Part shown: positions 13,878 to 44,325 of the stretch, one piece after another
Numbering within the stretch: the stretch's first letter is position 1
How the letters are laid out: each line of letters opens with the position of its first letter
DNA from: a virus
DNA length: 64,000 nucleotides
IMG/VR virus record: IMGVR_UViG_3300042309_002885
Location: 57,926 to 121,925 of that record
Direction: 5' to 3' (one strand)
The notes under the pieces: generated by a model
Told to the model about the DNA's origin: nothing
Database searches by the model: none
What the model saw: only the letters and a program-made list of their open reading frames with translations
Made by a program: the position numbers and the translations under genes

Positions 13878-13915
13878 AATTTATATAGTATAGGCACCAT
13901 ATAAATATTTTTCAA
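13878..13915 (-). promoter_or_regulatory. Sigma70-like promoter for queD
   Basis: On the - strand: TTGAAA (13915-13910), 17-base spacer, TATACT (13892-13887), then 9 bases to the ATG at 13877, predicting a leader of about 4 bases. A late-like TATAAATT also lies just before the ATG, so the gene may be read at both stages. Confidence 0.6.
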
Positions 13916-14859
13916 CTGCGAGAAAGTAATAAAGTTTCTTCTAATAGTTGTTTCTGTGTTTTGCCTGTTATAGGTACGTTAGATTCTACATACAGTGGAA
14001 CTAGGACGCTTTTTAGTTTATCTATTTGATTATCAGGTATTACCGTGTTTATATCAACTATATTTACACCCGTTGCTTTGCTTATTAAATCCTGTAAGTT
14101 TTTAGCATTAGGTAGTACATTTCTTGCAGACCTGTCATTTAATCGAATCTCTCTTGTTAAAAAAGCGATAATATTTTTAACGGGATAGCCATTTGCTTTA
14201 TTATCTCTATACCTACGTACAAGCTCATTAAATACAGGCAATCGTCCCGTTTTACTTGCACTTGAATGATATACATACCCCGTCTTTGTATCATATATCT
14301 CACCTATCTGTAGCCCCTTGGCTGTTCTAAAAACTTCTGCTGTTAGGGTCGCAAGCGGCGTTGTTTCTTCGGTTTTAGAAGGTGTATCTTCAGCGTCGCC
14401 CTGCTTTTTAACTTTACGTATTTTACGTTTAACTATTTCACGTCCAATGGGTATAAATGGCTTTACTAACGATCCCGCTGCTTCTCCGTATTGTTTGTAT
14501 CTACGGTCTCCACCACGCTCATATACATATGCTGTAAAGGTTATAAGTGTTACGTTTTTAGGACCGACTAACTCTCTAAACCAGGATTTTTTAGGGTTAG
14601 CGGGTTTTTGTTTTTGGTCAATAATTTTAACTAGTTCTATATCAGTATTATACCCAAGATATTGCTCTAAAACACTAGCAGGTTGTTGACTTTTATACGC
14701 GCTATAGGTTTTGATAAACGGACTTGCGACTGCTGCTAAAGGTTCTGTTATTTCGGGAGCAAAGGCTGTAATAGCTGCTTTTGCTGCAGCAGCACCACCT
14801 CTAATTCGATCTAAAAACCCAGTCTCTAATAAAAGATCCTTTTGTGTTATGTGACCCAT
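13912..14859 (-). CDS. Putative head-targeted virion protein (LLE leader site)
   Basis: The start at 14859 (MGHITQ...) is chosen because the late octamer TATAAATA ends 5 bases before it; in-frame ATGs at 14865 and 14928 overlap or precede the promoter. The 315-residue protein begins MGHITQKDLLLETG, which fits a short leader ending in an LxE cleavage site. It continues with an Ala-rich segment (GGAAAAKAAITAF), a basic stretch (REIVKRKIRKVKKQG) and a mixed C-terminus. No enzyme motif was recognised. It is probably a structural or internal head protein, judged by promoter class and leader. Confidence 0.6.
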   Translation of the reverse strand: MGHITQKDLLLETGFLDRIRGGAAAAKAAITAFAPEITEPLAAVASPFIKTYSAYKSQQPASVLEQYLGYNTDIELVKIIDQKQKPANPKKSWFRELVGPKNVTLITFTAYVYERGGDRRYKQYGEAAGSLVKPFIPIGREIVKRKIRKVKKQGDAEDTPSKTEETTPLATLTAEVFRTAKGLQIGEIYDTKTGYVYHSSASKTGRLPVFNELVRRYRDNKANGYPVKNIIAFLTREIRLNDRSARNVLPNAKNLQDLISKATGVNIVDINTVIPDNQIDKLKSVLVPLYVESNVPITGKTQKQLLEETLLLSRS

Positions 14860-14864
14860 GTACA

Positions 14865-14872
14865 TATTTATA
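14865..14872 (-). promoter_or_regulatory. T4-like late promoter (TATAAATA)
   Basis: A perfect late octamer on the - strand, 5 bases before the ATG at 14859. By T4 spacing the transcript would begin at the start codon. It is 36 bases from the divergent folE start. Confidence 0.65.
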
Positions 14873-14907
14873 GTAGAAAATGAAATATTTAGTATTATAT
14901 TTAGCTT

Positions 14908-15576
14908 ATGGATGATTTTGAAGAACAAGACCTACAAGGTGAAGCGGTAAAGCTACCTAACGCTAATGGCAATGCACCTAGAACAGATAAAGAAAAACAA
15001 AATATAATTAAACGCGCTGCAAAAGCTTATGAAAAGTATCTAGACGCATTAGGCTTTGATTGGAGAAACGATCCAAACTCCTCTAATACACCGATGCGAG
15101 TAGCGAAAGCTTTTGTTAATGATATCGCATCGGGGTGCTATAATAACCCACCGACGGTGACAGCGTTTCCTACTGATGGTTATGACGGGGTTATAGCACA
15201 ATGTAATATACCTGTCAAATCCCTCTGCTCACACCATCACCTTGCTTTTACAGGTGTAGCTCATGTAGCATATATTCCTTCTCTCGATGGTAAGGTTATC
15301 GGACTTAGTAAGCTTAATCGTATAGTTGAATTCTATGCACGTAGACCTCAAATTCAGGAAGGTCTTACCAAACAAATTGCAGAAGCTATTGATCAGGTAT
15401 GTGAAAAAAATCGCGGAGTAGCCGTAGTTGTTAAAGCTCAACATACATGTGCATGTCACCGCGGTGTAAAGCATGAAGGCTGTTATATGATTACATCAAA
15501 GCTAACAGGTGATTTTATGGAAGATGAAAAGACACGGACGGAGTTCTATAAGTTTATTGATATGGCCTCTAAATAG
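14908..15576 (+). CDS. folE: GTP cyclohydrolase I (FolE)
   Basis: A 222-residue protein. [20 protein letters not shown] carries the zinc Cys and His residues (CSHHH), [22 protein letters not shown] is the GTP-binding block, and [14 protein letters not shown] has the second zinc Cys. These define GTP cyclohydrolase I. It makes dihydroneopterin triphosphate, which feeds queD. The N-terminal 40 residues ([18 protein letters not shown]) are an acidic extension. It is followed after 20 bases by another + strand gene. Confidence 0.92.
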
Positions 15577-15596
15577 GAACTTAGTCATACTTCTGT

Positions 15597-16133
15597 ATGA
15601 ATATTTTTATTACTAATGAAGATCCCGTGTTAGCCGCACGGGATCTTTGTGATAAGCATGTACGGTCTAAAATGCAAATTGAAGGAGCTATTATGTTAGC
15701 TCATGCGTTTCCTCAAGAGGTTTTAGATCACCCCTCTACTCCAAAAACCAAAACTGGTAAGTCTCGTAAATCTGGTAAAGGGTATTCAAAGCATCAATGT
15801 TCTATATGGGCGCGAGAGTCAAAAGAAAATTTTATGTGGTTAGTAAATCACACTCTTGAGCAGTTTGAAGAAAGAATGTATAGGTGGCCTAATTCGACTG
15901 AGCATTTCACAAAAGAATTTATCGGATGGTGTAGTAAAAATTTACATAATACTTTTATTGAAAAAACTTCATTAACTCCTTTTGCTGTAGCTATAAAAAG
16001 TGATTGCATTTGTCGTAAAATTATTACTAATTTTGACAGCTTACCGGTAGTAGAGCAATATAGAGCTTATATAATACACGATAAAAGTTTTGCTGCCTGG
16101 ACAAAAAGAGAAATACCTAGTTGGTATAGTTAA
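15597..16133 (+). CDS. Conserved phage protein of unknown function
   Basis: A 178-residue protein. It begins MNIFITNEDPVLAARDLCDKHVRSK, followed by HQCSIWARESKENFMWLVNH, SLTPFAVAI, EQYRAYIIHDKSFAAWTKREIPSW. This pattern (DP..AA...CDKHV, C..WAR.S..N..WL, TPFA.A, AYR.Y...K..FA.WTKR..P.W) recurs in many T4-like and other phages, but no function is established. His, Cys and Asp residues in the two early blocks could bind metal. Its 3' end overlaps the convergent gene at 16117 by 17 bases. Confidence 0.7.
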   Translation: MNIFITNEDPVLAARDLCDKHVRSKMQIEGAIMLAHAFPQEVLDHPSTPKTKTGKSRKSGKGYSKHQCSIWARESKENFMWLVNHTLEQFEERMYRWPNSTEHFTKEFIGWCSKNLHNTFIEKTSLTPFAVAIKSDCICRKIITNFDSLPVVEQYRAYIIHDKSFAAWTKREIPSWYS

Positions 16134-16557
16134 TCTCGATCTGATCATCAGCAATATGATTTGAAGATACATCAATTAGCGCGTCAAGCTGCTTAATAAA
16201 ATCTTTACCTATAAGTACTTTATACTCATTCTGCGATCTATTACCAATACTAAAAGGTATATTATCGAACTCTGTTCCAGCAAATTTCATTCTAAATGAA
16301 ACAACAGGTCTTTCCTCTACGTGACCTGCACCTACATTAATGTTAATAGTATCATGAACGTCTTTAATGATTCGCTTACCGCCGACCGTTGTAAAGGTAA
16401 CCTTATTGCCTTGCTTTGCAATATCATCGCCGTGTAACACGTTGTAAGCTCCATTACCAGAGTCAATTTTTGCCTCGAGAGATCCGACTCCAGCGAGCTC
16501 TATTTTTTCAATAAGGCCTATAACTGTCGCTTCAAAGAATTTCTTAAAACTTTTCAT
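16117..16557 (-). CDS. Retropepsin-like/RimK-type zinc protease-like protein with capsid-targeting-like leader
   Basis: The start at 16557 (MKSFKKFFEA) is chosen because it overlaps the upstream stop as TAATG; an earlier ATG lies inside the upstream gene. The 146-residue protein contains GVGSLEAKIDSGNGAYNVL, a DSG motif in the position of the aspartic-protease DTG, and KVLIGKDFIKQL near the C-terminus. This order fits the retropepsin-like family PF05618 (ATP-dependent zinc protease). The leader MKSFKKFFEA resembles T4 internal-protein capsid-targeting sequences, so it may be packaged. Confidence 0.6.
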   Translation of the reverse strand: MKSFKKFFEATVIGLIEKIELAGVGSLEAKIDSGNGAYNVLHGDDIAKQGNKVTFTTVGGKRIIKDVHDTININVGAGHVEERPVVSFRMKFAGTEFDNIPFSIGNRSQNEYKVLIGKDFIKQLDALIDVSSNHIADDQIEINYTN

Positions 16558-17048
16558 TAATGACAATCTGGGCAACCTCCGCAAGTACAGCCTTGTTTTG
16601 CATAAGAACAACCTACATCTTCATGACCCGCATTATACATATCCTCCTCCTCATGATGGCAACAATCTGTACCTTCACCTTCGTGTTGTTTGAACTCCAT
16701 CCAGTGATAAACAGAAGAAATATAATCGGACGCCTTTGTAATTTTTGAAGATACCCACCCCTCTAATCCAGACATCTGCTGTACCATTTCCTTTAATTTA
16801 GGAGCATATTCAGCGAGCTTATGAAGTTCAGCTGATGCCATTTCTATTTCACTGGGGTCGTTTTCACCTGCATGCTCTGCATGTTCTTCTTCATGTGATT
16901 CATGACCTTCGTGATCGATCTCTGCACCAGGTAAATCCATCGTTATCATTACTGGTTTACCGCCTAACATACTAGTAGGTGATAGTGGCGTACCACCTAC
17001 ATTACCATATGCTTCTGCTAGCATCTTTAAATCTTCTCTCTTTGACAT
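16557..17048 (-). CDS. His/Cys-rich putative virion protein
   Basis: A 163-residue protein. The leader MSKREDLKMLAEAYG ends in an LAE site followed by A, like a prohead-protease site. A His/Glu-rich segment (HEGHESHEEEHAEHAG) is at about residues 47-62. It then has LEGWVSSKITKASDYISSV, a motif shared by several phage virion proteins, and a His/Cys-rich C-terminus (DCCHHEEE, CTCGGCPDCH). The two metal-binding ends suggest zinc or copper binding. It has its own late octamer. Confidence 0.65.
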   Translation of the reverse strand: MSKREDLKMLAEAYGNVGGTPLSPTSMLGGKPVMITMDLPGAEIDHEGHESHEEEHAEHAGENDPSEIEMASAELHKLAEYAPKLKEMVQQMSGLEGWVSSKITKASDYISSVYHWMEFKQHEGEGTDCCHHEEEDMYNAGHEDVGCSYAKQGCTCGGCPDCH

Positions 17049-17053
17049 GTTAA

Positions 17054-17061
17054 TATTTATG
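17054..17061 (-). promoter_or_regulatory. T4-like late promoter (CATAAATA)
   Basis: The octamer CATAAATA on the - strand ends 5 bases before the ATG at 17048. It overlaps the last codons of the upstream nucleotidyltransferase gene. Confidence 0.6.
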
Positions 17062-17590
17062 TTATACCTAGTATCTTCTTAATTCTTTCTTTATCAGTTT
17101 GATTAATAATTTCCGGTACAAAGAAATCTATTGAAGTGGGGTCTTTAGATATTATTTTTTCTCTTGTTGTAGTTCCACGTACACCCTCTCCACTTAGAGG
17201 TATATCCACTATATATACATTGGGGTATTTTTCAGGGTTTTTACGGAAAGAATTATATCTTGCACTATCTTCCGGGCCAGCACCAACAATAATATTTAAG
17301 TTAGGATTATCTAGAGCATAATCATAAGTAGAATTTAACGGTGTAACCGGACTCTTATACACTTCTACAGGTCTTGATAGATAAGGTACATATATACTCC
17401 ATATCAAATATGACGTTTCCTGATCTATACCATCACGAGGGCTTTTACCTATAAATACAACACCCTTATCTGCTTTTTTTAATAATTCGTTTAGTGCTTC
17501 AAAATGTCCCTTGGTGGGTGGTTTGAAGCCTCCAGGGAAGACAGCCACTGTTTCTTTTTTCTGCTCAAAGAATATTTTAAAACTTTTCAT
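17057..17590 (-). CDS. Nucleotidyltransferase (cytidylyltransferase/NMNAT-like) with capsid-targeting-like leader
   Basis: A 177-residue protein. VAVFPGGFKPPTKGHFEAL (residues about 16-34) is the HIGH-type phosphate loop of the NMN adenylyl/cytidylyltransferase superfamily (G.F.P.T.GH). VFIGKSPRDG and IIVGAGPEDSARYNSFRK follow, and GVRGTTTREKI stands where the family's ISxTxxR motif is expected. The leader MKSFKIFFEQ is nearly identical to that of the gene at 16117. Substrate unproven (NMN, FMN or other). It overlaps the upstream gene by 4 bases. Confidence 0.75.
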   Translation of the reverse strand: MKSFKIFFEQKKETVAVFPGGFKPPTKGHFEALNELLKKADKGVVFIGKSPRDGIDQETSYLIWSIYVPYLSRPVEVYKSPVTPLNSTYDYALDNPNLNIIVGAGPEDSARYNSFRKNPEKYPNVYIVDIPLSGEGVRGTTTREKIISKDPTSIDFFVPEIINQTDKERIKKILGIT

Positions 17591-19281
17591 ATACGACCTT
17601 TATTTTTATGGAAAGTTGGGGATATAACCTTAAAGATAAATGTATCTGTTGGTTGTGAAATCTTTATAACTAAGCCTTCATAATCACCTAGCTTCCCTGC
17701 TAGTTTTCCTAACTTACGAAGTATTTTTGTGTGCATCCTGCGCTGATACGGTAATAGTACCCTTATTAAATGAGACCTCATGTCTTTTTTAGCTGCTTGA
17801 TCGTCACGCTTTCTCGAGGCGTTGTAAAGAACTTCTTCGTAATTTGGGTTTTGAGCCACGAAGGTTTTAATCTCCTGAGCTGCATTTTCTGTTTCGTATT
17901 TTAAATTTATTGGATCAAACACATCAATGCCGAGAGGTATAAATTTAACATTACTATCCGATAGATCGGTTAAACTTCTCGTTATACCTTCCACCAATTC
18001 TGAAGAAAGCTCCTGGCCATTATAATCTGTTACAGAAATAATAGGAAAAGTCGACCATACACCTAGCTTGTCTCTCTCATAATTTGTTGCAACAAAGTAT
18101 ACAATACCCGGAAGCTCTTCACGTGTTAGTGCAAACGGTGAGTAAAGCCATTCTGCCTGTACTCTAATACCATCAATTTTTAAGTCCTTTTTATATCTCA
18201 ACAGTGTTTTATATACAAGTTTTTTAATCTTAGAGAAGTTTTCTTCGAAAGCCTTTCTGGTGGGTTCATGCATTATTTTATCCTTAAAAACACCATCAAC
18301 AACAGGCCCTGAATAGCTACCCTGTAAAAAGAATTTATTTTGCGGAGTAATGCCGAACTTAACTGACATCCCATCAGCTTTTTCTGATATACTTGAATTA
18401 CCTGGTTGTATTACGCCATTTGTTTGCTCTAATGCATCAATAAGTTTGGTGAAGTTTTCAAAATCCATTGAATACTGATTCGGTTTATATTCTGAATATA
18501 AGTGTTGCACTCCTATTCTTTTACCTGTCGAATCAGCGCTTTCTTTCACAATCTCATTACCACTAAAAATATCTATACCGTCCTTGCTAATAGTCTGTCT
18601 TGCTTCATTAAGGAGTGACATTATTATGTTAATATCCTTATATTTTTTGAGTAGAAATGCTATTATAGATTTTATATTGATGAGGTTTCTAGCACGTGCG
18701 CTAGAATCACCCAGCAAAATTTGTGACACTCTATCTGGATTTGTATTTTCAATAGTACTACCTGTTTGACGATCTGTAATACCTTTTAAGCCACTCCACC
18801 TTAAATTTAAATTTTTAGCCAAGTTAGCCATAACTACACTTCTATACGCTCCCTTAAGCGGGAAGGGTTCGTCGTTAGCTAGTGCAAATTTTGCAAAATT
18901 AATATCGGGTACAAACATGAAATCTGTTTGTACATATTCACCGTCTTTGTTGTATATGGGTGTTTTGAAATGAACACTTATACCTGATTTTGCAATATAA
19001 TCTTTTGGATTTAAGTTACGTTCCATACACCAATTGGCAAGAATATCGTATAACCGTACCTTAGACATTTTAAGCTCGTTAATAGCTATATCTAAATCTC
19101 CTGATGTCTCTCTTTTGCCTGTACTACCTAATAGGTTATTGTTTAAATTTACCCCTACTATTTTGGATAGAAAATCTACAGTTGGCTTTATGTCTACTAA
19201 GCTTATACGCTGCGTAGGATGTTGTTTAAAAACATTACCACCTTCTTGGAGAATGTTAAAGTATTTGTAAAAGTTAATCAT
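17587..19281 (-). CDS. Nucleotidyltransferase-nucleic acid ligase fusion with capsid-targeting-like leader
   Basis: A 564-residue, two-part protein. Residues about 45-150 hold NLLGSTGKRETSGDLDIAI, the GS...(G/S)DLD motif of pol-beta-type nucleotidyltransferases. Residues about 290-560 hold SISEKADGMSVKFGI (KADG, the ligase nucleotidyl-lysine motif I), GIRVQAEWLYSP (motif III region), EGLVIKI (motif IV) and FIFKVISP (motif V), so it is an ATP-type DNA/RNA ligase fold. The leader MINFYKYFNILQEGGN has an LQE/G prohead-type site. It overlaps the small gene upstream by 8 bases. Confidence 0.75.
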   Translation of the reverse strand: MINFYKYFNILQEGGNVFKQHPTQRISLVDIKPTVDFLSKIVGVNLNNNLLGSTGKRETSGDLDIAINELKMSKVRLYDILANWCMERNLNPKDYIAKSGISVHFKTPIYNKDGEYVQTDFMFVPDINFAKFALANDEPFPLKGAYRSVVMANLAKNLNLRWSGLKGITDRQTGSTIENTNPDRVSQILLGDSSARARNLINIKSIIAFLLKKYKDINIIMSLLNEARQTISKDGIDIFSGNEIVKESADSTGKRIGVQHLYSEYKPNQYSMDFENFTKLIDALEQTNGVIQPGNSSISEKADGMSVKFGITPQNKFFLQGSYSGPVVDGVFKDKIMHEPTRKAFEENFSKIKKLVYKTLLRYKKDLKIDGIRVQAEWLYSPFALTREELPGIVYFVATNYERDKLGVWSTFPIISVTDYNGQELSSELVEGITRSLTDLSDSNVKFIPLGIDVFDPINLKYETENAAQEIKTFVAQNPNYEEVLYNASRKRDDQAAKKDMRSHLIRVLLPYQRRMHTKILRKLGKLAGKLGDYEGLVIKISQPTDTFIFKVISPTFHKNKGRI

Positions 19282-19419
19282 ACTGAGATAGAATGTTTTT
19301 TATTTCCGGGGTACTAGTATTAATTTTTGTTATATTAGCCTTACTCTGTGTAATATCTGCTTTACTACCACCTCTCACTAAATTTTTCCGTATAAATTTT
19401 TTGTAGCTCTCTTAGACAT
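19274..19419 (-). pseudogene. Small gene interrupted by a -1 frameshift (5-A run)
   Basis: The ATG at 19419 overlaps the upstream stop by 8 bases. Frame 0 gives MSKRATKNLYGKI and then stops. After the K of YGK, a -1 shift at GGA-AAA-ATT continues as NLVRGGSKADITQ... and ends in ILSQYD at a stop at 19274, which overlaps the next start by 8 bases. With the shift the product is 48 residues. The overlap geometry on both sides matches neighbouring genes, so the coding unit is real. It could be programmed -1 frameshifting, a true mutation or a homopolymer error (5 versus 6 A). Confidence 0.6.
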
Positions 19420-20137
19420 TACTTAAATTATCTTCTACTTCTTTGTCTTCAAGTGATTGTGCTAAAATGCTCTGAATAGCTTCTACTATTTTTTCTGGAT
19501 CAATATCTGCATATTCATTTACAATAGGTTTAATTATCATTAACTCTTCATCAGTAGGTGAGTGTTTAAGAGCTTTCATAATTAACTCTTTATAGAGCGA
19601 ATTAAAAACCTCTGATAGGTCGAGGTCATTTTCTGAATTACTACCCGGTGGTGTCTCGAGCTTAGTATCTGCACTAGGTGCTATTTTACTTGTATCAGAT
19701 TGTGGTTCTGTTGCATCAGCAGACTGTTCAATAAATATCATATATTTATTGAGTAAATTGAGAGTTTTCGACTCTACTCTCAGACTTCTATCTAATGATA
19801 TAATTTGCTTTATATTTTTAATTACTTTTGAAACAGGTACATTTACCATGTTTTTAATTGTATCTATTTTATTATAGATATATTTTTCTCTCTGTGAGCC
19901 AAACATCTTTGGGTTGAAGATAAAAGCATTTGTAAGAATTTTTATTACATATTTCTCGTTGCTAGTTAGTTGTTTAGGCACTCCGGTAGGTGCTTCTTGT
20001 GCTGTATTAGGTATGGGTGTAATACCTGCAGGATTCATTCCAGCTACAGTGCTACCAGGCTGTTCTGGCGTCTGTTCTTCAAGAACACCGTATTTAACTA
20101 GATAATTATTAAAAAGTTGTATTGTTTTATTTTTCAT
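19412..20137 (-). CDS. Putative head-targeted protein of unknown function
   Basis: A 241-residue protein. It begins MKNKTIQLFNNYLVKYGVLEEQ, with an LEE/Q site after a basic, amphipathic leader. A Pro/Thr-rich linker follows (about 25-57), then a helical, Lys-rich region (NEKYVIKILTNAFIFNP, KVIKNIKQII), a second Ser/Pro-rich linker (about 135-165) and an acidic helical C-terminus. A further FIEQ site occurs at about residue 133. It overlaps the upstream gene by 4 bases. No fold recognised; grouped with the virion cohort. Confidence 0.6.
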   Translation of the reverse strand: MKNKTIQLFNNYLVKYGVLEEQTPEQPGSTVAGMNPAGITPIPNTAQEAPTGVPKQLTSNEKYVIKILTNAFIFNPKMFGSQREKYIYNKIDTIKNMVNVPVSKVIKNIKQIISLDRSLRVESKTLNLLNKYMIFIEQSADATEPQSDTSKIAPSADTKLETPPGSNSENDLDLSEVFNSLYKELIMKALKHSPTDEELMIIKPIVNEYADIDPEKIVEAIQSILAQSLEDKEVEDNLSNV

Positions 20138-20610
20138 ATAACGTTTACACTATTTGAGGTTAGGCCCTTCTTTGATGCTTTAATAGCTTCGCGTATATTA
20201 TTTGTAACACGCTTATATACACCAATACCCTCTTTTGCGACATTTTCACGCTCACCCACTGCTGTTTTAGCTTGCTGGTATGCAGATCCTAACTTACCTG
20301 CTGCCCACCCAAGAGGTCCATTTTTTGCTTTTGCTGCGAGTTCTTCAACTCCATGGTCTAAGCTATACGTAATACTCTCATTATCTTCTTCAGGTGTATT
20401 ACTATTGTTTGACTCACTAACACTTGTAACATGCAATGTAATAGTACTTCCTTTTACTTGTATTAGAAGTTCTTCTGGTTTATTCGTAGATATTACATTT
20501 ATTTCAGGTATTTTATTTAAAAGATCTGCTAACAAATCTACCATTTCTCCCTTTGCAGTACTATCTGCAGAAGGCATAGTACCCTCTACAATATCTAAAA
20601 ACTTACTCAT
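20134..20610 (-). CDS. Putative head-targeted protein of unknown function (IVE leader site)
   Basis: A 158-residue protein. It begins MSKFLDIVEGTMPS, an IVE/G site that fits (I/L)xE cleavage. The middle has a small beta region (EELLIQVKGSTITLHVTSV). The C-terminal half is helical and Ala/Lys-rich: GPLGWAAGKLGSAYQQAKTAVGERE. This GWA..KLG.A..QAK.AVG.RE pattern is shared by several uncharacterised marine T4-like phage proteins. It is the first gene of the 20610-17057 late operon. Confidence 0.6.
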   Translation of the reverse strand: MSKFLDIVEGTMPSADSTAKGEMVDLLADLLNKIPEINVISTNKPEELLIQVKGSTITLHVTSVSESNNSNTPEEDNESITYSLDHGVEELAAKAKNGPLGWAAGKLGSAYQQAKTAVGERENVAKEGIGVYKRVTNNIREAIKASKKGLTSNSVNVI

Positions 20611-20615
20611 GTTTA

Positions 20616-20623
20616 TATTTATC
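20616..20623 (-). promoter_or_regulatory. T4-like late promoter (GATAAATA)
   Basis: The octamer GATAAATA on the - strand ends 5 bases before the ATG at 20610. It is inside the end of the gene at 20619. Confidence 0.6.
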
Positions 20624-21149
20624 GTAAAAGCATAATTTTATTACCTGGCTGCTTTAGATAAGTATCAACAACATAGAGCAGTTGCCATTTTTTTAAAAAA
20701 CGCTTAAATTTCTGAAAAGCCTTTACACTATCCTTTTTTAGCATAATGCATCTTTCTAATTCCTCTACACACATACAATCTCTATTATCTAATTTAGATA
20801 CGAATTGCTGTAGATATAAATCACTAAAAATTACCTGACATGGTAATTTTTCTAAGAATTCAACAATAAAACGAGTGTTGTTATCATTTTTATTTTTTTT
20901 AAAAAAAATAATTATTTCTTTATTTTTGGATTCTTTTTTTAAAAAATCGCATAATGCTAATAAAACACTATGATAAAGAAGTTTAATACTATCGTTCGAT
21001 TTGAGATCTGTTATTGAATATGAATCTAAAAGAGGATATAATTTTAGATATGCGTCATTTAAAATATAATCGAAATTAATTAAGAGTAAATTATGTTTTT
21101 TTAACTCTTGATATTCCAGGTCTTGATACTCGTAAGTTAATAATTCCAT
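20619..21149 (-). CDS. Unknown AT-rich protein following the GIY-YIG endonuclease
   Basis: The start at 21149 (MELLTYEYQ) gives a 176-residue protein that overlaps the endonuclease gene by 59 bases; an ATG at 21248 would overlap more. The protein is Lys/Leu/Ile-rich (LLINFDYILNDAYLKLYPLL; IIIFFKKNKNDNN) and more AT-rich than its neighbours. RDCMCVEELERCIMLKK holds a Cys cluster. No family recognised. It may have arrived with the endonuclease as an insertion between two head-cohort genes. Confidence 0.45.
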   Translation of the reverse strand: MELLTYEYQDLEYQELKKHNLLLINFDYILNDAYLKLYPLLDSYSITDLKSNDSIKLLYHSVLLALCDFLKKESKNKEIIIFFKKNKNDNNTRFIVEFLEKLPCQVIFSDLYLQQFVSKLDNRDCMCVEELERCIMLKKDSVKAFQKFKRFLKKWQLLYVVDTYLKQPGNKIMLLR

Positions 21150-21519
21150 TATAATAATCCTCGCGTAATAAAACCTCTTTGTCAAATTGAAGTTTAGCTT
21201 CTGCATATGCAAGTGCAAATTTTGACTCACAAAATTGTAATATTTCAAACTTGAAATTATTTTTACCGTGTATTTTAATATCTTCGTTTAATTCTCTTGA
21301 GGATGATGTGTATACTCTCCAGTCAGTTTCAACAGCTTGATGCCTTTTTTTTGTCTTACCTTTTAAAGGTTGCTTTTTTTTAATAGTTATGCACTGTTTT
21401 TTACCTATATATTTTTTATTTGTTATTATACATGTAATGCAATATATAAAGCCGAAGGGCGTAGTAGCTGTATTATAAACTACATTTTCCGCTAAATGCC
21501 AGTGACCAGTATCAATCAT
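21091..21519 (-). CDS. GIY-YIG endonuclease (Seg-like)
   Basis: A 142-residue protein. FGFIYCITCIITNKKYIGKKQ is the GIY-YIG motif (FIY...YIG), followed by DWRVYTSSSRELNEDIKIHGKNNF and EILQFCESKFALAYAEAKLQF. The Y.SSS..L..DI...GK..F...IL pattern is that of Seg-type phage homing endonucleases and of GIY-YIG proteins in many phages. The start overlaps the stop of the gene at 21516 as ATGA. It is probably selfish DNA, and could mark an insertion in the late operon. Confidence 0.8.
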   Translation of the reverse strand: MIDTGHWHLAENVVYNTATTPFGFIYCITCIITNKKYIGKKQCITIKKKQPLKGKTKKRHQAVETDWRVYTSSSRELNEDIKIHGKNNFKFEILQFCESKFALAYAEAKLQFDKEVLLREDYYNGIINLRVSRPGISRVKKT

Positions 21520-21725
21520 TTTTTTATTTTCTTGCGGCGCTTATTTTTATACTTACCTTTTCTTGTAAATACAGCGCCGCCTTTTGGTATTTGTAACTTG
21601 CCCGGAGCATAAAAATCACCACTAAAAGGTGTATCTGGTGTAAATCCTCCTACACTACCTCCAAGTGCAGAACCTGCTGTGAGGTTTTCATAAAAAAACT
21701 GCTTAAAAGTTCCAGTTGATTTCAT
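21516..21725 (-). CDS. Small head-cohort protein with FFYEN leader
   Basis: A 69-residue protein. It begins MKSTGTFKQFFYENLTAG, close to the MKSFK.FFE leaders. A Gly-rich middle (GSALGGSVGGFTPDTP) leads to GDFYAPGKLQIPKGG and a very basic C-terminus (RKGKYKNKRRKKIKK), which could bind packaged DNA. Short proteins of this layout (leader, Gly-rich linker, DFYAPGD-type motif, basic tail) occur in marine T4-like phages. It is driven by a perfect late octamer that overlaps the uvsY promoter on the other strand. Confidence 0.6.
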   Translation of the reverse strand: MKSTGTFKQFFYENLTAGSALGGSVGGFTPDTPFSGDFYAPGKLQIPKGGAVFTRKGKYKNKRRKKIKK

Positions 21726-21744
21726 TATATAAAGTATTTATAAT
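21716..21744 (+). promoter_or_regulatory. Sigma70-like promoter of uvsY, leaderless at GTG
   Basis: TTGATT (21716-21721), 17-base spacer, TATAAT (21739-21744). The expected transcription start is 21751, the G of the uvsY GTG start codon. There is no room for a Shine-Dalgarno. Confidence 0.7.
21735..21742 (-). promoter_or_regulatory. T4-like late promoter (TATAAATA) opposite the uvsY -10 box
   Basis: A perfect late octamer on the - strand, 9 bases before the ATG at 21725. It shares bases 21739-21742 with the -10 box of the + strand uvsY promoter, so the two cannot easily be occupied together. Confidence 0.65.
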
Positions 21745-31465: not shown

Positions 31466-32560
31466 ATGGATAAAGATGTTCTAAGTGCTTTAAATGAAAT
31501 TGATGATGTAAATCCTTTCGCTACTTATTTGAGTGATAGTACGCTTAGCCGCGTTGGAGGATGGGTAGATACAGGTAGCTATGTTCTCAATGCTATTATC
31601 TCAGGTTCTATTCACGGTGGTATTCCAAAGGGTCGAGTTACTATGCTTGCCGGTGAATCCATGACAGGTAAATCATTATTTGTACAAAAGATTCTCGCTA
31701 AGGCTCAACAAGAAGGTCTTATACCAGTAATTTTTGATACTGAAAACGCTATTGATCCTGAAGGAGCTCAACGACTAGGTCTTGATATTAGTAAGGTAAA
31801 GTATGTGCCGTGTATCAGTATCGAACAAACGCGTAACGCTCTCTTTAAATTTCTTACATCTGTTAAAGAAAAGAAACTTGAGGGTAAGTTCATTGTTGCA
31901 ATCGACTCTTTAGGCAACCTTCAATCAGAGCTCGAGCTAGCTCGCATGGGAAAGGATAGTACCTCTGCAGATATGGGTACTAAAGCACGTGCAATGAAGT
32001 CACTAATGCAGACTTGTACCAATCTAGGTGCTGTAACTCAGACTACTATTCTTTGCACTAACCATGTTTATGACGATCCCTCTGCTATGTTTCCATCAAT
32101 TGAAAAACATATGCCAGGTGGTAAGGCATGTGTATATCTTCCATCAGTAACAGTTCAACTTGCACGTAAGCCGATGAAATCTGATGATGGTAAAACAACA
32201 GACGGTGAATTAGCTGTCGGTCAAAAATCTTATGCAGGTATTATTATTAGAGCTCTTACGCGTAAAAATAGATTTATTAAACAGTATCTCGAAGGCGAGA
32301 TGTACCTATCCTTTGCTAACGGACTGGATAGGTATTATGGCTTGCTCGATCTTGCGGTCGGTCTTGGTGTAGTTATTCAGAACGGATCGACATACGCTCT
32401 TGAAGATGGAACTAAGCTAGGGTATTATCGCAACTTTAGAAAGGACACCAAATTATGGGAAGAAATCATACTTCCCAAACTAGATGCGCGTATCAAAAAA
32501 GAGTGGTCCTACAGCAATCTCGAAGAAGAGACACCAGAAGAAATAAACGATGAAGCGTAA
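31466..32560 (+). CDS. uvsX: RecA-like recombinase UvsX
   Basis: A 364-residue protein. GRVTMLAGESMTGKSLFVQKI holds Walker A (GESMTGKS, residues 63-70). PVIFDTENAIDPEGAQRLGLD is the MAW-type region, FIVAIDSLGNLQSELEL is Walker B, and TNHVYDDPSAMFPSIEKHMPGGKA is loop L2. These are the UvsX hallmarks. It catalyses strand exchange in T4-type recombination-dependent replication, with UvsY, gp32 and UvsW, all present here. Its end overlaps queC by 11 bases. Confidence 0.93.
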   Translation: MDKDVLSALNEIDDVNPFATYLSDSTLSRVGGWVDTGSYVLNAIISGSIHGGIPKGRVTMLAGESMTGKSLFVQKILAKAQQEGLIPVIFDTENAIDPEGAQRLGLDISKVKYVPCISIEQTRNALFKFLTSVKEKKLEGKFIVAIDSLGNLQSELELARMGKDSTSADMGTKARAMKSLMQTCTNLGAVTQTTILCTNHVYDDPSAMFPSIEKHMPGGKACVYLPSVTVQLARKPMKSDDGKTTDGELAVGQKSYAGIIIRALTRKNRFIKQYLEGEMYLSFANGLDRYYGLLDLAVGLGVVIQNGSTYALEDGTKLGYYRNFRKDTKLWEEIILPKLDARIKKEWSYSNLEEETPEEINDEA

Positions 32561-33299
32561 AAAATTAGTATTAGCATTTTCTGGCGGTTGCGATTCATCT
32601 GTACTTCTCTTTATGGCGGCAGGTAGAGGATATGAAGAAATTCATACCGTAACCTTCGATTATGGTCAAAGACATCGTCGTGAAATGCAATGTGTACCGC
32701 TTCAAAAATGGAGTCTTGAAGAGAAATACCCTAATGTTAAATTTACAAATAAAGTATTAGATGTAAGCTATCTAAAGGATATCTCTCCTACGTCCTCGTT
32801 AACAAATCTAGAAATTGATAATCCAGATATAAGTAAAATCGCCGGTGATGCACAGCCTGTTTCATATGTTCCGTTTCGTAATCAAATGTTTATTACGATT
32901 TGCTGTGCTTACGCGGAAAGTCTCGGTGCAGACGCGGTTTGGTACGGTGCAGCGCAAGTAGACTCGTTAGCTGGCTACTGGGATGGCTCGCAAGAATTCG
33001 TTGATAGTATAAATCAGTTAGCAGCTCTTAACAGACAACATAGGATCCTCATTGAAGCTCCATTGCTCTCCTTGTCAAAAGCAGACATCATACGAGAAGG
33101 TGTAAAACTAGGCGTTCAGTTCGAGAACACATGGACATGTTATAGTAACCGCGAGGATGGTCTTGCTGATGCTACTACACCGTCGAGTAGTTTGCGAGTT
33201 CAGGGCTTTATTAGCGCTGGATATAAGGATCCCATCAAGTACCTTCAACAGGATAAGCTTGATGGGATATATAAAGAAAAGAATTGTAAAGAATTATAA
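32550..33299 (+). CDS. queC: 7-cyano-7-deazaguanine synthase QueC, zinc site lost
   Basis: A 249-residue protein. LVLAFSGGCDSSVLLFMA is the PP-loop ATP site. HTVTFDYGQRHRREM, YVPFRNQMFITICCAYAESLGAD and IEAPLLSLSKADIIREGVKLGV are QueC blocks. The family's zinc motif is normally TCY..(6-8)..CG.C..C.LR; here it reads TWTCYSNREDGLADATTP, then SSSLRVQGF. Only the first of four Cys is kept. It would convert CDG to preQ0 (or a variant product). It is linked to uvsX by an 11-base overlap. Confidence 0.88.
   Translation: MKRKKLVLAFSGGCDSSVLLFMAAGRGYEEIHTVTFDYGQRHRREMQCVPLQKWSLEEKYPNVKFTNKVLDVSYLKDISPTSSLTNLEIDNPDISKIAGDAQPVSYVPFRNQMFITICCAYAESLGADAVWYGAAQVDSLAGYWDGSQEFVDSINQLAALNRQHRILIEAPLLSLSKADIIREGVKLGVQFENTWTCYSNREDGLADATTPSSSLRVQGFISAGYKDPIKYLQQDKLDGIYKEKNCKEL
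33229..33268. terminator. Intragenic hairpin at the 3' end of queC
   Basis: An 11-bp perfect stem (ATCCCATCAAG / CTTGATGGGAT) around an 18-base partly paired loop, 31 bases before the queC stop. queC converges on the gene at 33294 with a 6-base overlap, so it may act as a terminator. No strong T run follows. Confidence 0.45.
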
Positions 33300-34781
33300 T
33301 CCGTATCTTCTAAGCTCTTCTAATTGAAAAGAAGTTTTAGGTTTATATTTGTCTTTGAAAGATAGATTTTGCTGAGGTTGTGATCTTCTAGCGCTATCAC
33401 TCTTTGTCTGCTCTGTAAGATATATAGCAGTGGTTATATTAACATTTTCTTGTATCTGTATAGTATCGGGTATTTTGTAGGTTTGACGCATTTCTTGTTC
33501 TGTTTTTCTAAATTCATCTCTCATACGCGTAACCCGGTCAGATTTACCTGATAATCTAGCTGCTGTTCCTTCATCTCTAAGAGCTTGTAACTCATTTTGT
33601 ACTCTTTCTCTATCCTCATCGTTTTTAATTCTAGCTAAAAACTCATCTGTACCACCTCTTGATGCAATATCTCCTGCAATCTCTTTACCGGCTTGATATG
33701 CTTTAGGAGCTAAATGACTGCCTCCTACTGCTGTACCGACTAGCGCTGCGGCTCCCGCTAAACCTCTACCCACACGTTTTGCTGACTCCATGTCAAATTT
33801 TTCTGTAGTTAAGGATTCATTACCTCTAACTATCTTTACAGGTCTAGGCTCATCTTGATATTTCTTAACAAAGCCAATAAGTCTTTGTAAATAAGGATCA
33901 TTCGTTGTTGATTCATCTTCTGCTTCTTCTGTAGGATACTCTTCATCTTCTATAGATGTTGATTTGAGATTACCAATCATATCTTTCTGATTCATGTCTG
34001 GTTCATGTATAACAACCCCCGCACCACCAAAAGACTTAAGATCGTCCGCTATTTGTCTTTCAATTTTCTCTACTCCTAATCTAGATATTATCTTACCTAG
34101 CTTGCTAGATACACCAAACACAACATCAATACTTCTACCTTCTACCTCAATGTCACCTTCATCTACAAATTTCGAGAGATATCTAACAATTTGTGTTATA
34201 TCGCTCAAATCACTATCTCTATCAGCAATTATTTCGAGCATGTATTCATTACTATAGGATGATTCTAAAGAACCGATAAGATCATCATACATATTTACAG
34301 TCTGACTCATAGACGACATTGCACTTGCTGTCTCTTTTTTACGCTCTAGTCTCGCTACCTTCTTAGCTGCTTTAAGTTCAGCATTAAGTTTATTAACCTC
34401 ATAGCGTTGTTGCGCTGCATCTGTTCTATTACCTGTAGTAAAGCTGACTTTATTCTCAAGTTGATCCTTAATATGAGCTTGAATTTCGTCGCGCTTGGAT
34501 TTTATCTTAGAAGCTATACCATTTGATTCAAAATATTCAACCATTCTACTAACGGAAGGGTCATTTTTAAACATTCTAACTACAGAATCATCTATAATAT
34601 CCAAATCAAACAATATACCAAGCATCGCTAAGCGACCTTCACGTGTGCCGGAAGAAGCACCTCTTGATTTAGCTAATGAACGAGCTTGATTTTGAAATCC
34701 AGGCATTATCCTGTCCATTGGCGAATCTTTAGCTTCATGTAAAGAGGATAGCCTTGATAGTAGCTTTGTAAAGGAACTCAT
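33294..34781 (-). CDS. Large putative head-targeted protein (LHE leader site)
   Basis: A 495-residue protein. The leader MSSFTKLLSRLSSLHEAKDS ends in an LHE/A site. It then has a long helical, charged body (KLNAELKAAKKVARLERKKE), an acidic patch (EDEEYPTEEAEDESTTND), a Gly/Ala helix with possible membrane character (GRGLAGAAALVGTAVGG, about residues 344-360) and a basic C-terminus. Extra IQE/N and LTE/Q sites occur late in the sequence. It looks like an internal virion or scaffold-associated protein. It sits alone on the - strand, opposite the replication genes, with a perfect late octamer. Confidence 0.6.
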   Translation of the reverse strand: MSSFTKLLSRLSSLHEAKDSPMDRIMPGFQNQARSLAKSRGASSGTREGRLAMLGILFDLDIIDDSVVRMFKNDPSVSRMVEYFESNGIASKIKSKRDEIQAHIKDQLENKVSFTTGNRTDAAQQRYEVNKLNAELKAAKKVARLERKKETASAMSSMSQTVNMYDDLIGSLESSYSNEYMLEIIADRDSDLSDITQIVRYLSKFVDEGDIEVEGRSIDVVFGVSSKLGKIISRLGVEKIERQIADDLKSFGGAGVVIHEPDMNQKDMIGNLKSTSIEDEEYPTEEAEDESTTNDPYLQRLIGFVKKYQDEPRPVKIVRGNESLTTEKFDMESAKRVGRGLAGAAALVGTAVGGSHLAPKAYQAGKEIAGDIASRGGTDEFLARIKNDEDRERVQNELQALRDEGTAARLSGKSDRVTRMRDEFRKTEQEMRQTYKIPDTIQIQENVNITTAIYLTEQTKSDSARRSQPQQNLSFKDKYKPKTSFQLEELRRYGL

Positions 34782-34787: not shown

Positions 34788-34795
34788 TATTTATA
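34788..34795 (-). promoter_or_regulatory. T4-like late promoter (TATAAATA)
   Basis: A perfect octamer on the - strand, 6 bases before the ATG at 34781. It lies 5 bases from the start of the divergent helix-hairpin-helix gene. Confidence 0.65.
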
Positions 34796-37770: not shown

Positions 37771-37794
37771 TTAAACTGTCACGTTATATAAATA
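37767..37794 (+). promoter_or_regulatory. Composite promoter region before the gene at 37801
   Basis: TATAAATA (37787-37794) is a perfect late octamer, 6 bases before the GTG at 37801. TTGATT (37767-37772) lies 16 bases upstream of a TAAATA box, so a sigma70-like promoter is also possible. Confidence 0.45.
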
Positions 37795-37800
37795 TGTAGC

Positions 37801-39180: not shown

Positions 39181-39201
39181 TAATATAACAAAAATAAAAT
39201 T

Positions 39202-40041: not shown

Positions 40042-40043
40042 GT

Positions 40044-41471: not shown

Positions 41472-41745
41472 TGATAGAGATTCGTTTTCAGAAGATGAAA
41501 TAAAAAACCTTATACGTGAAGCGCTTAAGGTTAATATTGAAGATAAAAAAGCAGCTGTAAGTAAATTAAAAATAGATACAGCTCTTATATCAACTGTAAA
41601 AGAGTTTCTTAATACGTTTGCTATTATAGGTTACGATCTTAGCGGCGAACCGGTTGTTTTAAAATACGCAAAATCTCAAATGGAGAAGGATGCTCTAAAT
41701 ACTATTATTATGAAATACTTAACGTATGTCATGTATGAAGGTTAA
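41461..41745 (+). CDS. Small helical protein of unknown function
   Basis: A 94-residue protein: SFSEDEIKNLIREALKVNIEDKKAAVSKLK, then FLNTFAIIGYDLSGEPVVLKYAKSQMEKDALNTII. It is overlapped by 11 bases at both ends and sits between gp45 and the RNase H. GYDLSGEPV is a possible loop motif. No family recognised. It is part of the coupled gp45-gp61 gene chain. Confidence 0.5.
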   Translation: MKRDDRDSFSEDEIKNLIREALKVNIEDKKAAVSKLKIDTALISTVKEFLNTFAIIGYDLSGEPVVLKYAKSQMEKDALNTIIMKYLTYVMYEG

Positions 41746-42055
41746 GAGTTTAATAAGACCTGGTGATATATATGCAGTACATACCGGAGCATACGCCGGT
41801 GAAATGCTGCTATGTATAAAAGTTAACAAGGCAGCGTATTGTTTCTTATCTATACCAAATTTAATTAACAGGGATATAGATATACCAGTTGTTAATAATG
41901 CAATTGAGACTAAAATTATACAGTATATAGAAAATGTCCCAAAATTTGTGCTCAAAACAAGTACGGAGCAATATAAACATAATGAAAAAGCTAATAATAG
42001 ACGGAAACAACCTAATACACAGAACGTATTGGGTGGCAAAGACTCAATCAGCTAA
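41735..42055 (+). CDS. Small protein of unknown function upstream of RNase H
   Basis: The start at 41735 (MKVKSLIRPG) gives 106 residues; ATGs at 41726 and 41731 exist, with only 41726 in frame. SLIRPGDIYAVHTGAYAGEMLLCIKV resembles a short SH3-like barrel, which is common in small phage proteins. The C-terminal tail is basic (ANNRRKQPN). Its end overlaps the next start by 74 bases, a long overlap. Function unknown. Confidence 0.45.
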   Translation: MKVKSLIRPGDIYAVHTGAYAGEMLLCIKVNKAAYCFLSIPNLINRDIDIPVVNNAIETKIIQYIENVPKFVLKTSTEQYKHNEKANNRRKQPNTQNVLGGKDSIS

Positions 42056-42860
42056 AGCTGGATTCAGTTGCATAGAAAAAATTAACAATTTACATATATA
42101 TTTTACACTAAATGCAATATTTTCGTATGTATCACAATTTGCACCATCTGACATATTTGTTGTTTGGGATGAAAAGCCAGATTATCGTGAAAATCTACGT
42201 AAAAAAGAATTTTTAGATTATAAGAATAATAGAAGTAGTGATATTTCACCACATCAAAACAATCAAATTATAAAGGATATACTAAAACACATAGGTGTTG
42301 TGTCAATTTTTCCGAGAGATCTTGAGGCTGATGATGTTGTATCTTTTATATGTAGAAAGTTTCTTGTAGACTATAAAAATACAATAATATCTGCCGATAA
42401 AGATTTTCTACAACTTGTAAATAAGGATACATCTCTATACGACCCTATACGAAAGTTTGAATATAATGATAAGACATTTAAGGAGAAGACAGGGTTCGAA
42501 AACACTGTTGATTGGCTTAATGTAAAATGTCTTCTAGGAGATAAATCGGATAACGTCCCCGGTATACCCAAGTTTACTAAGCGTAAGGTTGATCTTTTTC
42601 TTAAAAAGAATATAATTTTAACAGAGGGGGAACGGCATATTTTTAACAGAAACTACGATCTATTTAACCTATCACGAATCGATACATTATACGAAGAGCA
42701 AGAATATTATTTTAGTCAATTACAACAAAAAAGAGAAGATAATTGGAAGGCCTTTGTTGACGAATGTACAACGCGGCAATTTAATAATATATTAAAGAAA
42801 CGCGAAGCGTGGTATAGCCTCTTTTTTCTTAAAAATAAACTTAAAGAACTCTTTGTATGA
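41982..42860 (+). CDS. rnh: RNase H/5'-3' exonuclease (flap endonuclease family, T4 Rnh-like)
   Basis: The start at 41982 (MKKLIIDGNNLIHRTYW) gives 292 residues, near T4 RNase H (305). KLIIDGNN, IFVVWDEKPDYRENL, PRDLEADDVVSFICRKF, TIISADKDFLQLV and CLLGDKSDNVPGIPKFT supply the acidic metal residues and the helix-hairpin-helix turn of the FEN superfamily. It removes RNA primers on the lagging strand. The end overlaps the primase start by 4 bases. Confidence 0.85.
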   Translation: MKKLIIDGNNLIHRTYWVAKTQSAKAGFSCIEKINNLHIYFTLNAIFSYVSQFAPSDIFVVWDEKPDYRENLRKKEFLDYKNNRSSDISPHQNNQIIKDILKHIGVVSIFPRDLEADDVVSFICRKFLVDYKNTIISADKDFLQLVNKDTSLYDPIRKFEYNDKTFKEKTGFENTVDWLNVKCLLGDKSDNVPGIPKFTKRKVDLFLKKNIILTEGERHIFNRNYDLFNLSRIDTLYEEQEYYFSQLQQKREDNWKAFVDECTTRQFNNILKKREAWYSLFFLKNKLKELFV

Positions 42861-43903
42861 TTGCAATACCTAGTGAATATATTGTAGAAAAATTCTTCGA
42901 ATATGTTTATCAACCCAGGTATAACAAATATAACAACACATATCAAGGGGGGTGCTGTATTTGTAAAGAGGGAGGCTCGCTCGGTAAAAAAAGACGGTGT
43001 TATTATATACCAAAAAATGATAATATATTTTGTCATAATTGCGGCTGGTCTAGTAAGCCTTTTAAATGGGTAAAGGAGGTTACAGGTAAAACTGATATAG
43101 ATATTATTAACGATATAAAAGAATATGACACTACAACAGCAGCACCTATTCACATACCAACTGAAATAAGCCCTAAGCAACAGAGTAAGACTTTACCTGA
43201 TGATTGTATAAATTTGTTCGACCCTACACAGTTAAATTTTTACAAAGAAAACCTGATAGTTCAAAGCTGTATTAAAATTATTCAACATCGCCGACTTGAT
43301 ACCGCAATTAATAGGCCAGAAAAACTATTTATATCGTTAACAGATACCGTACATAAAAACAGACTCATTATACCGTTTATAAACGAATCTAATGAAATTG
43401 AATTCTATCAATCTCGATCTATCACCACACAAGATATTAAAACGAGACCGAAATATATATCACGTATAAATGCTGAAAAAACACTCTTTAATATAAACAA
43501 AATTAGCGGAGAATACAATTATGTATTTATTTTTGAAGGACCTTTAAACGCTTTCTTTACACGAAATAGCGTTGCTGTTGCAGGTATAACAGAAAGGGGG
43601 CAGACATCCTTTACAAAACGACAGCAAGAGCAAATCGACAGTGTTCTTGCATGGTATAAAAAAGTGTGGGTTTTAGATAGTCAATGGCTAGATAACGCAT
43701 CACTCTCAAAGACAGAAATTCTCCTAAAAAATAATGAGGCAGTTTTTATATGGCCAGAGCAAATAGGCACGAAATACAAAGACTTTAATGATTTGTGTAT
43801 AGCAGGTAAAAGAGATGAAATTACGCATGGCTTTATACTAAAAAACACCTTCAGCGGACTTGAAGGTGTTTTTAGACTTGCAAATATTAAAAATAAACGT
43901 TAA
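42857..43903 (+). CDS. 61: DNA primase gp61
   Basis: A 348-residue protein, close to T4 gp61 (342). The N-terminal zinc site is GGCCICKEGG ... FCHNCGW (Cys33-36 and Cys59/62). RLIIPFINESNEIEFYQSR and YVFIFEGPLNAFFTRNSVAVAG are the Toprim-like catalytic block. VWVLDSQWLDNA is the next metal strand. It makes RNA primers for gp43 and works with helicase gp41. The 3' end contains a bidirectional terminator hairpin and overlaps the convergent gene at 43900 by 4 bases. Confidence 0.85.
   Translation: MIAIPSEYIVEKFFEYVYQPRYNKYNNTYQGGCCICKEGGSLGKKRRCYYIPKNDNIFCHNCGWSSKPFKWVKEVTGKTDIDIINDIKEYDTTTAAPIHIPTEISPKQQSKTLPDDCINLFDPTQLNFYKENLIVQSCIKIIQHRRLDTAINRPEKLFISLTDTVHKNRLIIPFINESNEIEFYQSRSITTQDIKTRPKYISRINAEKTLFNINKISGEYNYVFIFEGPLNAFFTRNSVAVAGITERGQTSFTKRQQEQIDSVLAWYKKVWVLDSQWLDNASLSKTEILLKNNEAVFIWPEQIGTKYKDFNDLCIAGKRDEITHGFILKNTFSGLEGVFRLANIKNKR
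43841..43873. terminator. Bidirectional intrinsic terminator inside the gene 61 3' end
   Basis: A perfect 13-bp stem, AAAAACACCTTCA / TGAAGGTGTTTTT, with a 7-base loop. The A5 start and T5 end make it a terminator in both directions. It lies in the last 63 coding bases of gene 61, at the convergent junction with the gene at 43900. Confidence 0.75.
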
Positions 43904-44325
43904 ACGTATTTTAACGATGTGTTGTTAGATTGCGCTAAAAACCCTTTAAATGATTCTGCGAGCGCTGCTAGTTCAGTTGCAACACGTGCTATTTTACGTT
44001 GCTCAGATTGCTTCATTTTGTCGAAAAGTGTATCAGGTTCTGCGTTAGAAAGTGCAGTTTGTATTGATGACTCTGTACCATTTAACTCTTGAAGAAACTC
44101 TTCCATCGAGCTAATCCATTCTCTTAATTGAGATACCATAACTGCTTCACGTTCTGATAAAGCACGTGAGACAGCTGCATTTGGATCATCAGAACTAGGT
44201 GTAGTATCAAGATCAGTATCAAAAGCATCCTCTGGTGTACCTTTATCAAGCGTGGATACCATTGCCGCTCTATCTTCGTCTTGTTCTTTTAATACTTTAA
44301 AAAATCTATTTTCGAATTTAGTCAT
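43900..44325 (-). CDS. Putative head-targeted protein (LKE leader site)
   Basis: A 141-residue protein starting MTKFENRFFKVLKEQDEDR, with an LKE/Q site after a basic leader. A flexible acidic middle (FDTDLDTTPSSDDPN) leads to helices (REAVMVSQLREWISSMEEFLQELNG, RKIARVATELAALAESFKGFLAQSN). The ATELA.LAESF.G.LAQSN end resembles a conserved tail of marine phage virion proteins. It is driven by a late octamer with exact 5-base spacing. Probably an internal head protein. Confidence 0.6.
   Translation of the reverse strand: MTKFENRFFKVLKEQDEDRAAMVSTLDKGTPEDAFDTDLDTTPSSDDPNAAVSRALSEREAVMVSQLREWISSMEEFLQELNGTESSIQTALSNAEPDTLFDKMKQSEQRKIARVATELAALAESFKGFLAQSNNTSLKYV

Follow-up and report, generated by a model that had tools for sequence, protein, structure and literature searches.

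Do the short N-terminal leaders shared by a set of late genes mark proteins that are packed into a phage head? The question is raised by bases 57926-121925 of the 121,925-base virus record IMGVR_UViG_3300042309_002885, the 64,000-nucleotide stretch that was analysed here and is called the window; its genes are named by their window start coordinates. Ten minus-strand genes begin with an N-terminal segment of 9-21 residues that has (L/I/F)xE at its end. The first-pass annotation had claimed these ten segments, and all of them were read in the sequence, but two start sites had to be corrected: 16117 starts at ATG 16557, giving MKSFKKFFE, and 13912 at ATG 14859, giving MGHITQKDLLLE, with a late-promoter box 13 nucleotides (nt) before it. 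Two further members lie outside the window and carry genome coordinates: 31773 (genome 31773-32087, minus strand, leader MNSFRELQSLYE/D, the slash marking the predicted cut) and a twelfth candidate, 13675 (genome 13675-14073, leader MRLPKKDQNLIAE/A). Judged from sequence comparison, the leaders are probably T4-type capsid-targeting sequences (CTS) and at least three of the mature proteins, all enzymes, are probably carried in the head. The case for packaging is made because the same genome holds a complete T4-type head module (gp20, gp21, gp22, gp23), because F4, the cleavage E and the aromatic residue at 7 persist in orthologues whose leaders otherwise drift, because leaderless homologues of three enzymes begin at or slightly past the predicted cut, and because CTS-bearing marine NMNAT homologues have been detected in virions.

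The motif was compared with its chance level. Counted as [LIF]xE with the E at residues 8-22, it occurs in 12/12 cohort genes (the ten and the two outside the window), in 23 of the 91 plus-strand genes and in 11 of the 52 other minus-strand genes. With a background of about 25%, the bare motif by itself proves little, and its count was rejected as proof. A stricter rule combines F/Y at 4, a hydrophobic residue at 7 or 8 and [LIFMVY]xE by residue 17; it was drawn up once the leaders were known and is thus descriptive, not a blind test. On the late strand, 6 of 75 open reading frames (ORFs) follow this rule versus 1.02 expected from shuffles, and 0/500 shuffles reach 6. On the plus strand, 2 of 111 ORFs follow it versus 1.29 expected, and 187/500 shuffles reach 2. 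Leave-one-family-out scoring supports 16117, 17057, 17587, 43900 and 31773 individually. Key residues at 4 and 7 together with hydrophobic-x-E were found in these five genes and in 33294, the remaining leaders being weaker. For 13912, 19412, 20134, 33294, 16557 and 21516, the case rests on conservation and promoters. A position matrix built from the leaders of this phage was also tried as a universal CTS finder and was rejected, T4's own internal proteins (IPs) not being ranked top; a T4-register pattern was used in its place.

The leaders of three enzymes were then compared with those of their relatives in IMG/VR (60-88% identity); a megablast of the sequence against phages gave no match. Gene 17057 (17057..17590, minus strand) encodes an NMNAT/PPAT-like adenylyltransferase of the HIGH superfamily, with the leader MKSFKIFFE/Q at 17564-17590. 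This leader has a leave-one-out score above those of all 91 plus-strand and 52 other minus-strand genes. Its variants in relatives are MKSFKIFFE, MINFKLYFE, MISFKLFFE and MINFKLYYE, with Q next in every case, and M1, F4, aromatics at 7-8, E9 and Q10 are kept in the orthologues. In the AlphaFold model (mean predicted local confidence, pLDDT, 83), residues 1-8 fall below 50 and the fold begins at residue 14. Foldseek matched the model to PPAT, NadD and NadM at probability 1.00; the motif GGFKPPTKGH is present and TIGR00125 matched at E=8e-6, slightly under its cut-off. On the strength of the model, 17057 is assigned to the PPAT/NMNAT fold of the HIGH superfamily, an assignment that is neutral as to substrate.

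Gene 17587 (17587..19281, minus strand) combines a nucleotidyltransferase (GS..SGDLDI) with an RNA ligase (KADG) and has the leader MINFYKYFNILQE/GG at 19243-19281. Only M1, F4, Y7 and E13 are invariant among seven orthologue leaders; in the IMG/VR relatives these read MINFYKYFNILQE, MINFRQYFNILLE, MLNFKKYFNLLLE and MLTFKNYYVLATE, and all precede GGNVF. The ligase part matched PF09414 weakly (E=6e-4, 20.4 bits versus a cut-off of 27). The AlphaFold model, built from 7 sequences, is poor (pLDDT 51.5), and its top Foldseek match, T4 RNA ligase 2, was taken solely as weak evidence of a ligase domain; a sequence search of the PDB with 17587 returned nothing useful. The C-terminal domain may tentatively be called RNA-ligase-like, with the nucleotidyltransferase joined to it.

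Gene 16117 (16117..16557, minus strand) encodes a RimB-like retropepsin with the leader MKSFKKFFE/A at 16531-16557, whose leave-one-out score exceeds those of all controls. It matched PF05618 over the cut-off (E=5.5e-8) and is called no more than RimB-like, its score against NF052261 RimB (E=2e-6, 27.6 bits) being under the curated cut-off of 200. For all three enzymes, leaderless homologues start at or slightly past the predicted cut. The 17587 nucleotidyltransferase homologues of Sinorhizobium phage Phosso and Agrobacterium phage Atu_ph07 start MGG(N/R)AF, which coincides with the predicted cut that leaves GGNVF; the RimB-like homologue of the uncultured phage LR756502 starts MNKIGRVEKI, versus MKSFKKFFE/ATVIGLIEKI in 16117; and the adenylyltransferase of Prochlorococcus phage P-HM2 starts MKKVYVTFGRLNPPT. 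These comparisons show the leader as an extra piece attached to the mature domain.

In T4, targeting is described in passages of PMC9026906 as acting mainly via CTS residues 4 and 7, and processing via 8 and 10. The residues that stay fixed in the orthologue leaders match these T4-mapped positions, and the leaders evolve in a CTS-like manner. The first-pass annotation had proposed a logo of the N-termini of all late genes in related phages; a comparison of the leaders indeed showed key positions kept and the remainder drifting.

Related leaders occur in marine phages. The adenylyltransferase of Synechococcus phage Bellamy begins MKSLFQFLNE/A, and 79/79 readable marine NMNAT contigs have a leader MKSF(F/L)QFLxE/A in the T4 register, with F/L4, F7, L/F/I8, a free position 9, E10 and A/S11. 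An ATP-grasp+RimB protein of Pelagibacter phage Mosig carries the leader MQVQPFKNYLEE/A, and F(K/R)x(Y/F)(L/I)xE stands directly before the domain in 78 marine ATP-grasp+RimB contigs. The ATP-grasp+RimB homologue of Yersinia phage YerA41 is annotated as a structural protein; passages of PMC7354516 report that virions of this phage were analysed by liquid chromatography-tandem mass spectrometry.

An NMNAT or cytidylyltransferase was detected in virions by mass spectrometry in S-SM1 (PMC3037559), S-SCSM1 (PMC9602691), S-CREM2 (PMC10665884) and others, as stated in passages of these papers. The detected NMNATs begin MKSFLQFLKE/A in S-SCSM1, MKKFSAFLNE/A in S-SM1 and MKNFSSFLTE/A in S-CREM2; the S-SM1 'citidylyltransferase' T4-GC190 was tied to its gene by family, as the sole phrog_395 match in the record. 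Other virion proteins of S-CREM2 have leaders as well: a SAM hydrolase (MKDFDSFLEE), a kinase (MKRFDAFLTE), ORF13 (MKDLHSFLTE), ORF136 (MQTFSMFFSE) and Cas9, with LRFASFMAE/A at residues 17-25. Five of the six annotated T4-register proteins of S-CREM2 are among the 52 detected, for which a hand calculation over about 219 genes gives a chance of about 0.004. The text of the S-CREM2 paper (PMC10665884) nowhere mentions a targeting sequence or cleavage. The S-CREM2 kinase and cyanophage NMNATs also share, directly after the leader, a module of about 35 residues resembling AKxxGLxxxGxGxWxDxxGxFVAxTxDGKL (loci L338 10579-12846, minus strand; L349 61-1206; L054), which may be a further element for packaging or docking. 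In Flavobacterium phage immuto (L090, L095, L096), several N-termini resemble MENFDLKKFLVE/NKLTxNS and others MKKQILSEQFRRMQKLAGIITE; these shared N-termini are possible targeting leaders of another type.

A protease that could cut the leaders is encoded in the same genome. The head module lies left of the window on the minus strand, in T4 order: gp20, S77 protease, gp68-like, gp22-like, gp23. The gp21-type prohead protease (G000:50628-51071) matched Peptidase_S77 PF03420 over the cut-off (E=1.3e-31), the gp20 portal matched PF07230 (2e-105) and gp23 matched PF07068 (2e-90). The gp22-like scaffold matched PF25623 under the cut-off (1.4e-4), and the small gp68-like protein is assigned by position only. 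The S77 protease itself begins MALKLNLLVE/K. Across 80 relatives, the likely site of gp23 cleavage follows WC(L/I/F/M/V)xE/(A/S/G), the E being present in 63 of 81 rows; F or M is therefore allowed at P3 by the clade consensus, which the cohort requires. An alignment of this cut to that of T4 was gapped at the site and was dropped, the cut being judged within the clade only. The search for a prohead protease and its consensus, proposed in the first-pass annotation, thus yielded an S77 protease and a probable gp23 cut that fits the cohort. Together with the CTS-like evolution of the leaders and the leader-bearing homologues in virions, the protease supports the T4-type interpretation given in that annotation.

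The promoters point the same way. The T4 late promoter core NATAAATA stands 13-14 nt upstream of the start codon in 13912, 16557, 20134, 33294, 43900 and 13675 and likewise in gp21 and the gp68-like gene, the distance being 17 nt for 21516. On the minus strand of the window, the boxes are TATAAATA at 14865..14872 (13 nt before the 13912 ATG), CATAAATA at 17054..17061 (13 nt before 16557), GATAAATA at 20616..20623 (13 nt before 20134), TATAAATA at 21735..21742 (17 nt before 21516) and at 34788..34795 (before 33294), and AATAAATA at 44331..44338 (13 nt before 43900). The remaining cohort genes lie inside operons, except 31773, which has a variant box only. Of the 47 ATAAATA sites on the late strand, ten are followed at offset 12 by an ATG (ORF of at least 60), no other offset having more than 2, and this peak recurs in the relative G001. 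Moreover, 33294, 43900, 13675 and 31773 are lone minus-strand genes amid plus-strand genes, early ones in the case of 33294 and 43900. These promoters predict that the cohort is expressed late, together with the head genes. A distance of 13-14 nt combined with T4 spacing would also place the transcript start on the ATG, predicting leaderless late mRNAs. A plus-strand gene at genome 29561-30049 (L003 9561-10049) begins in CTS-like fashion, with MITFKQYTLLKE/S, and lacks a late box; its G001 counterpart begins MITFKEYLVE/Y and has a late box.

The other cohort genes, all on the minus strand, are more varied. Gene 43900 (43900..44325; 141 residues, function unassigned) has the leader MTKFENRFFKVLKE/Q at 44284-44325 and MSKFENRFFKVLNE/Q in an orthologue; its leave-one-out score is exceeded by 2 of the 91 plus-strand and none of the 52 other minus-strand genes. 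Gene 33294 (33294..34781; 495 residues, function unassigned) has the leader MSSFTKLLSRLSSLHE/A at 34734-34781, MSSFTKLLSRLTSLNE/A in an orthologue, and a conserved C-terminal YLTE/Q; no homologues were found in phage records. In 19412 (19412..20137; 241 residues, function unassigned) the leader ends LEE/Q, at 20075-20137; LxE-Q at 21 and a further [LF]xE-Q at 137 recur in seven orthologues (42-61% identity), with variable flanks. Profile searches with 19412 and 33294 matched no enzyme family, and both may be core proteins. The small basic protein 21516 (21516..21725; 69 residues, IP-like) has the leader MKSTGTFKQFFYE/N at 21687-21725, which fits the T4-derived pattern; its relatives keep TFKQ(F/Y)FYE or TFKQFYE. 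The acidic, His/Cys-rich 16557 (16557..17048; 163 residues) has the leader MSKREDLKMLAE/A at 17013-17048, and MLAE, MLSE or MLEE in close relatives. For 20134 (20134..20610; 158 residues) the leader is MSKFLDIVE/G at 20584-20610, with MSKFLDIVE, MKEFLKIVE and MSKFLKIVGE in relatives, and for the basic 13912 (13912..14859; about 315 residues) it is MGHITQKDLLLE/T at 14824-14859, with MTQKDLLSE/G and MSKITQKELLQE/G in relatives. Within the leader-gene cluster, 21091-21519 (minus strand) encodes a leader-free SegE-type GIY-YIG endonuclease. The window also holds a QueD-like gene (13248-13877, minus strand), a GTP cyclohydrolase I gene (14908-15576, plus strand) and QueC (32550-33299, plus strand), a 7-deazaguanine pathway that may serve DNA modification.

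Several observations weigh against the leaders being capsid-targeting sequences. A bare [LIF]xE near the N-terminus is frequent by chance (25% of plus-strand and 21% of other minus-strand genes), and in leave-one-family-out scoring 13912, 19412, 20134 and 33294 are not significant alone, nor, to a lesser degree, are 16557 and 21516. The cohort E falls at 9, 12, 13, 14, 16 or 21 and not at the 10 of T4, the E10 register being a T4 detail that may not be essential. The minus-strand cluster genes 20619, 21091 and 13248 have no leaders, while the candidate leader gene 29561 is on the plus strand; a matrix made from this phage's leaders fails to place the T4 IPs at the top; and the most distant (60%) relatives of 16557 have lost the E. 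Passages of later virion papers are undecided between cargo and contamination for NMNAT, and the cyanophage detections could, per their authors, be partly contamination. The motif background, the ordinary leave-one-out scores of 13912, 16557, 20134 and 33294 and the lost E of 16557 would all be expected if only a subset were real CTS proteins and these four carried a chance (L/I/F)xE. We regard this as possible but on balance doubtful: the site is kept in orthologues of 20134, 33294 and 13912, and the transcription units of all four begin at a late box at -13/-14, as does that of gp21.

Some of the proteins might instead be parts of the prohead core or scaffold, like gp67 or gp68, that are cut and mostly lost rather than delivered. 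The conserved [LF]xE/Q in the middle of 19412 and the similar site near the C-terminus of 33294 recall T4 core proteins that are cut to pieces, and neither protein matched an enzyme family. This account is unlikely; it misfits the three enzymes, whose folded domains start after the leader and whose homologues persist in virions, and T4 Alt is cut at both ends and yet ejected, according to passages of PMC9026906. That the leaders have another role, such as attaching the proteins to membranes or acting as a common signal for late translation start, their CTS likeness being coincidental, is very improbable. Short amphipathic N-termini on late genes and a fixed promoter-to-ATG spacing common to such genes would agree with it, but late genes of the same spacing exist without a leader, conservation falls precisely on the positions that serve targeting and processing in T4, and the leader correlates with virion detection in S-CREM2. 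T4-type CTS packaging of at least three enzymes (NMNAT-like, nucleotidyltransferase/RNA ligase and RimB-like) is likely, whereas the chance that all ten proteins are cargo is about even.

From these comparisons we infer that the leaders are cut, that this phage packages and ejects the proteins and that they function in the host, as follows. Cohort proteins would be made late in infection alongside the head core, and an N-terminal helix (F4, hydrophobic 7) would dock them into the prohead core. The gp21-like S77 protease would cut after (L/I/F/M)xE, releasing the mature protein inside the head before the DNA is packaged. Once released, the proteins, the three enzymes included, would travel with the DNA and most likely enter the next host by ejection; by analogy with T4, injection is likely. 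There they may act in immediate NAD/CoA-type metabolism or counter-defence, in RNA repair and in trimming the tail of ribosomal protein S6. The tag would point to NAD metabolism, the repair of RNA and the trimming of ribosome tails as functions that may be useful to a phage ahead of its own protein synthesis. We lean slightly towards the view that the CTS/gp21 pathway serves throughout the T4 superfamily as a general means of delivering proteins. If so, a removable ten-residue tag has been moved onto unrelated enzymes (NMNAT, RNA ligase/nucleotidyltransferase, RimB, RimK-RimB, SAM hydrolase, kinase, Cas9) that act in the host before any phage gene is read. Such a readable tag would let injected proteins be predicted by sequence alone in abundant marine T4-like phages, and it offers a mechanism and a test for the cyanophage virion NMNAT and for the S-CREM2 Cas9, kinase and SAM hydrolase.

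Packaging of this kind is already known, with the IPs of T4 and its Alt protein as examples (Repoila 1994, cited in a passage of PMC12373910). In passages of PMC9026906 and PMC12373910, IPI, IPII and IPIII (MKTYQEFIAE/A) are late gene products with an N-terminal leader of about 10 residues, aromatic at 4 and 7, cut by an S77 protease after hydrophobic-x-E, and their mature parts are unrelated; all this resembles the cohort, and 21516 is likewise small and basic. They differ in being small inhibitors of type IV restriction, several cargoes here being enzymes, and in their E at 10, which in this phage is often at 9 or 13. T4 Alt, as described in such passages, is also an injected enzyme with gp21 processing at its N-terminus (and C-terminus); it is an ADP-ribosyltransferase, a type of enzyme to which no cohort protein among the ten showed a family match. 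The first-pass annotation had spoken of an unusual enzyme payload: enzymes are indeed found in the cohort, but with Alt known and NMNAT already detected in cyanophage virions the payload is less unusual than proposed. Tagging of such a set of metabolic and RNA enzymes, in a distant T4-like phage and in marine phages whose virion enzymes had lacked an explanation, appears to be new, as judged from a search of papers outside subscription journals; the published passages on cyanophage NMNATs do not mention a targeting leader. Those NMNATs (S-SM1, S-SCSM1, S-CREM2) share with 17057 the HIGH-type superfamily and the kind of leader, and were detected in virions; those of S-SM1, S-SCSM1 and Bellamy differ from it by the extra module of about 35 residues. 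In the giant phages SPN3US and phiKZ, many head proteins are likewise cut after xE by a gp21 homologue and many are ejected, but, according to passages of PMC5694885, their propeptides mostly exceed 100 residues and are cut after A/S/G-x-E instead of (L/I/F)xE.

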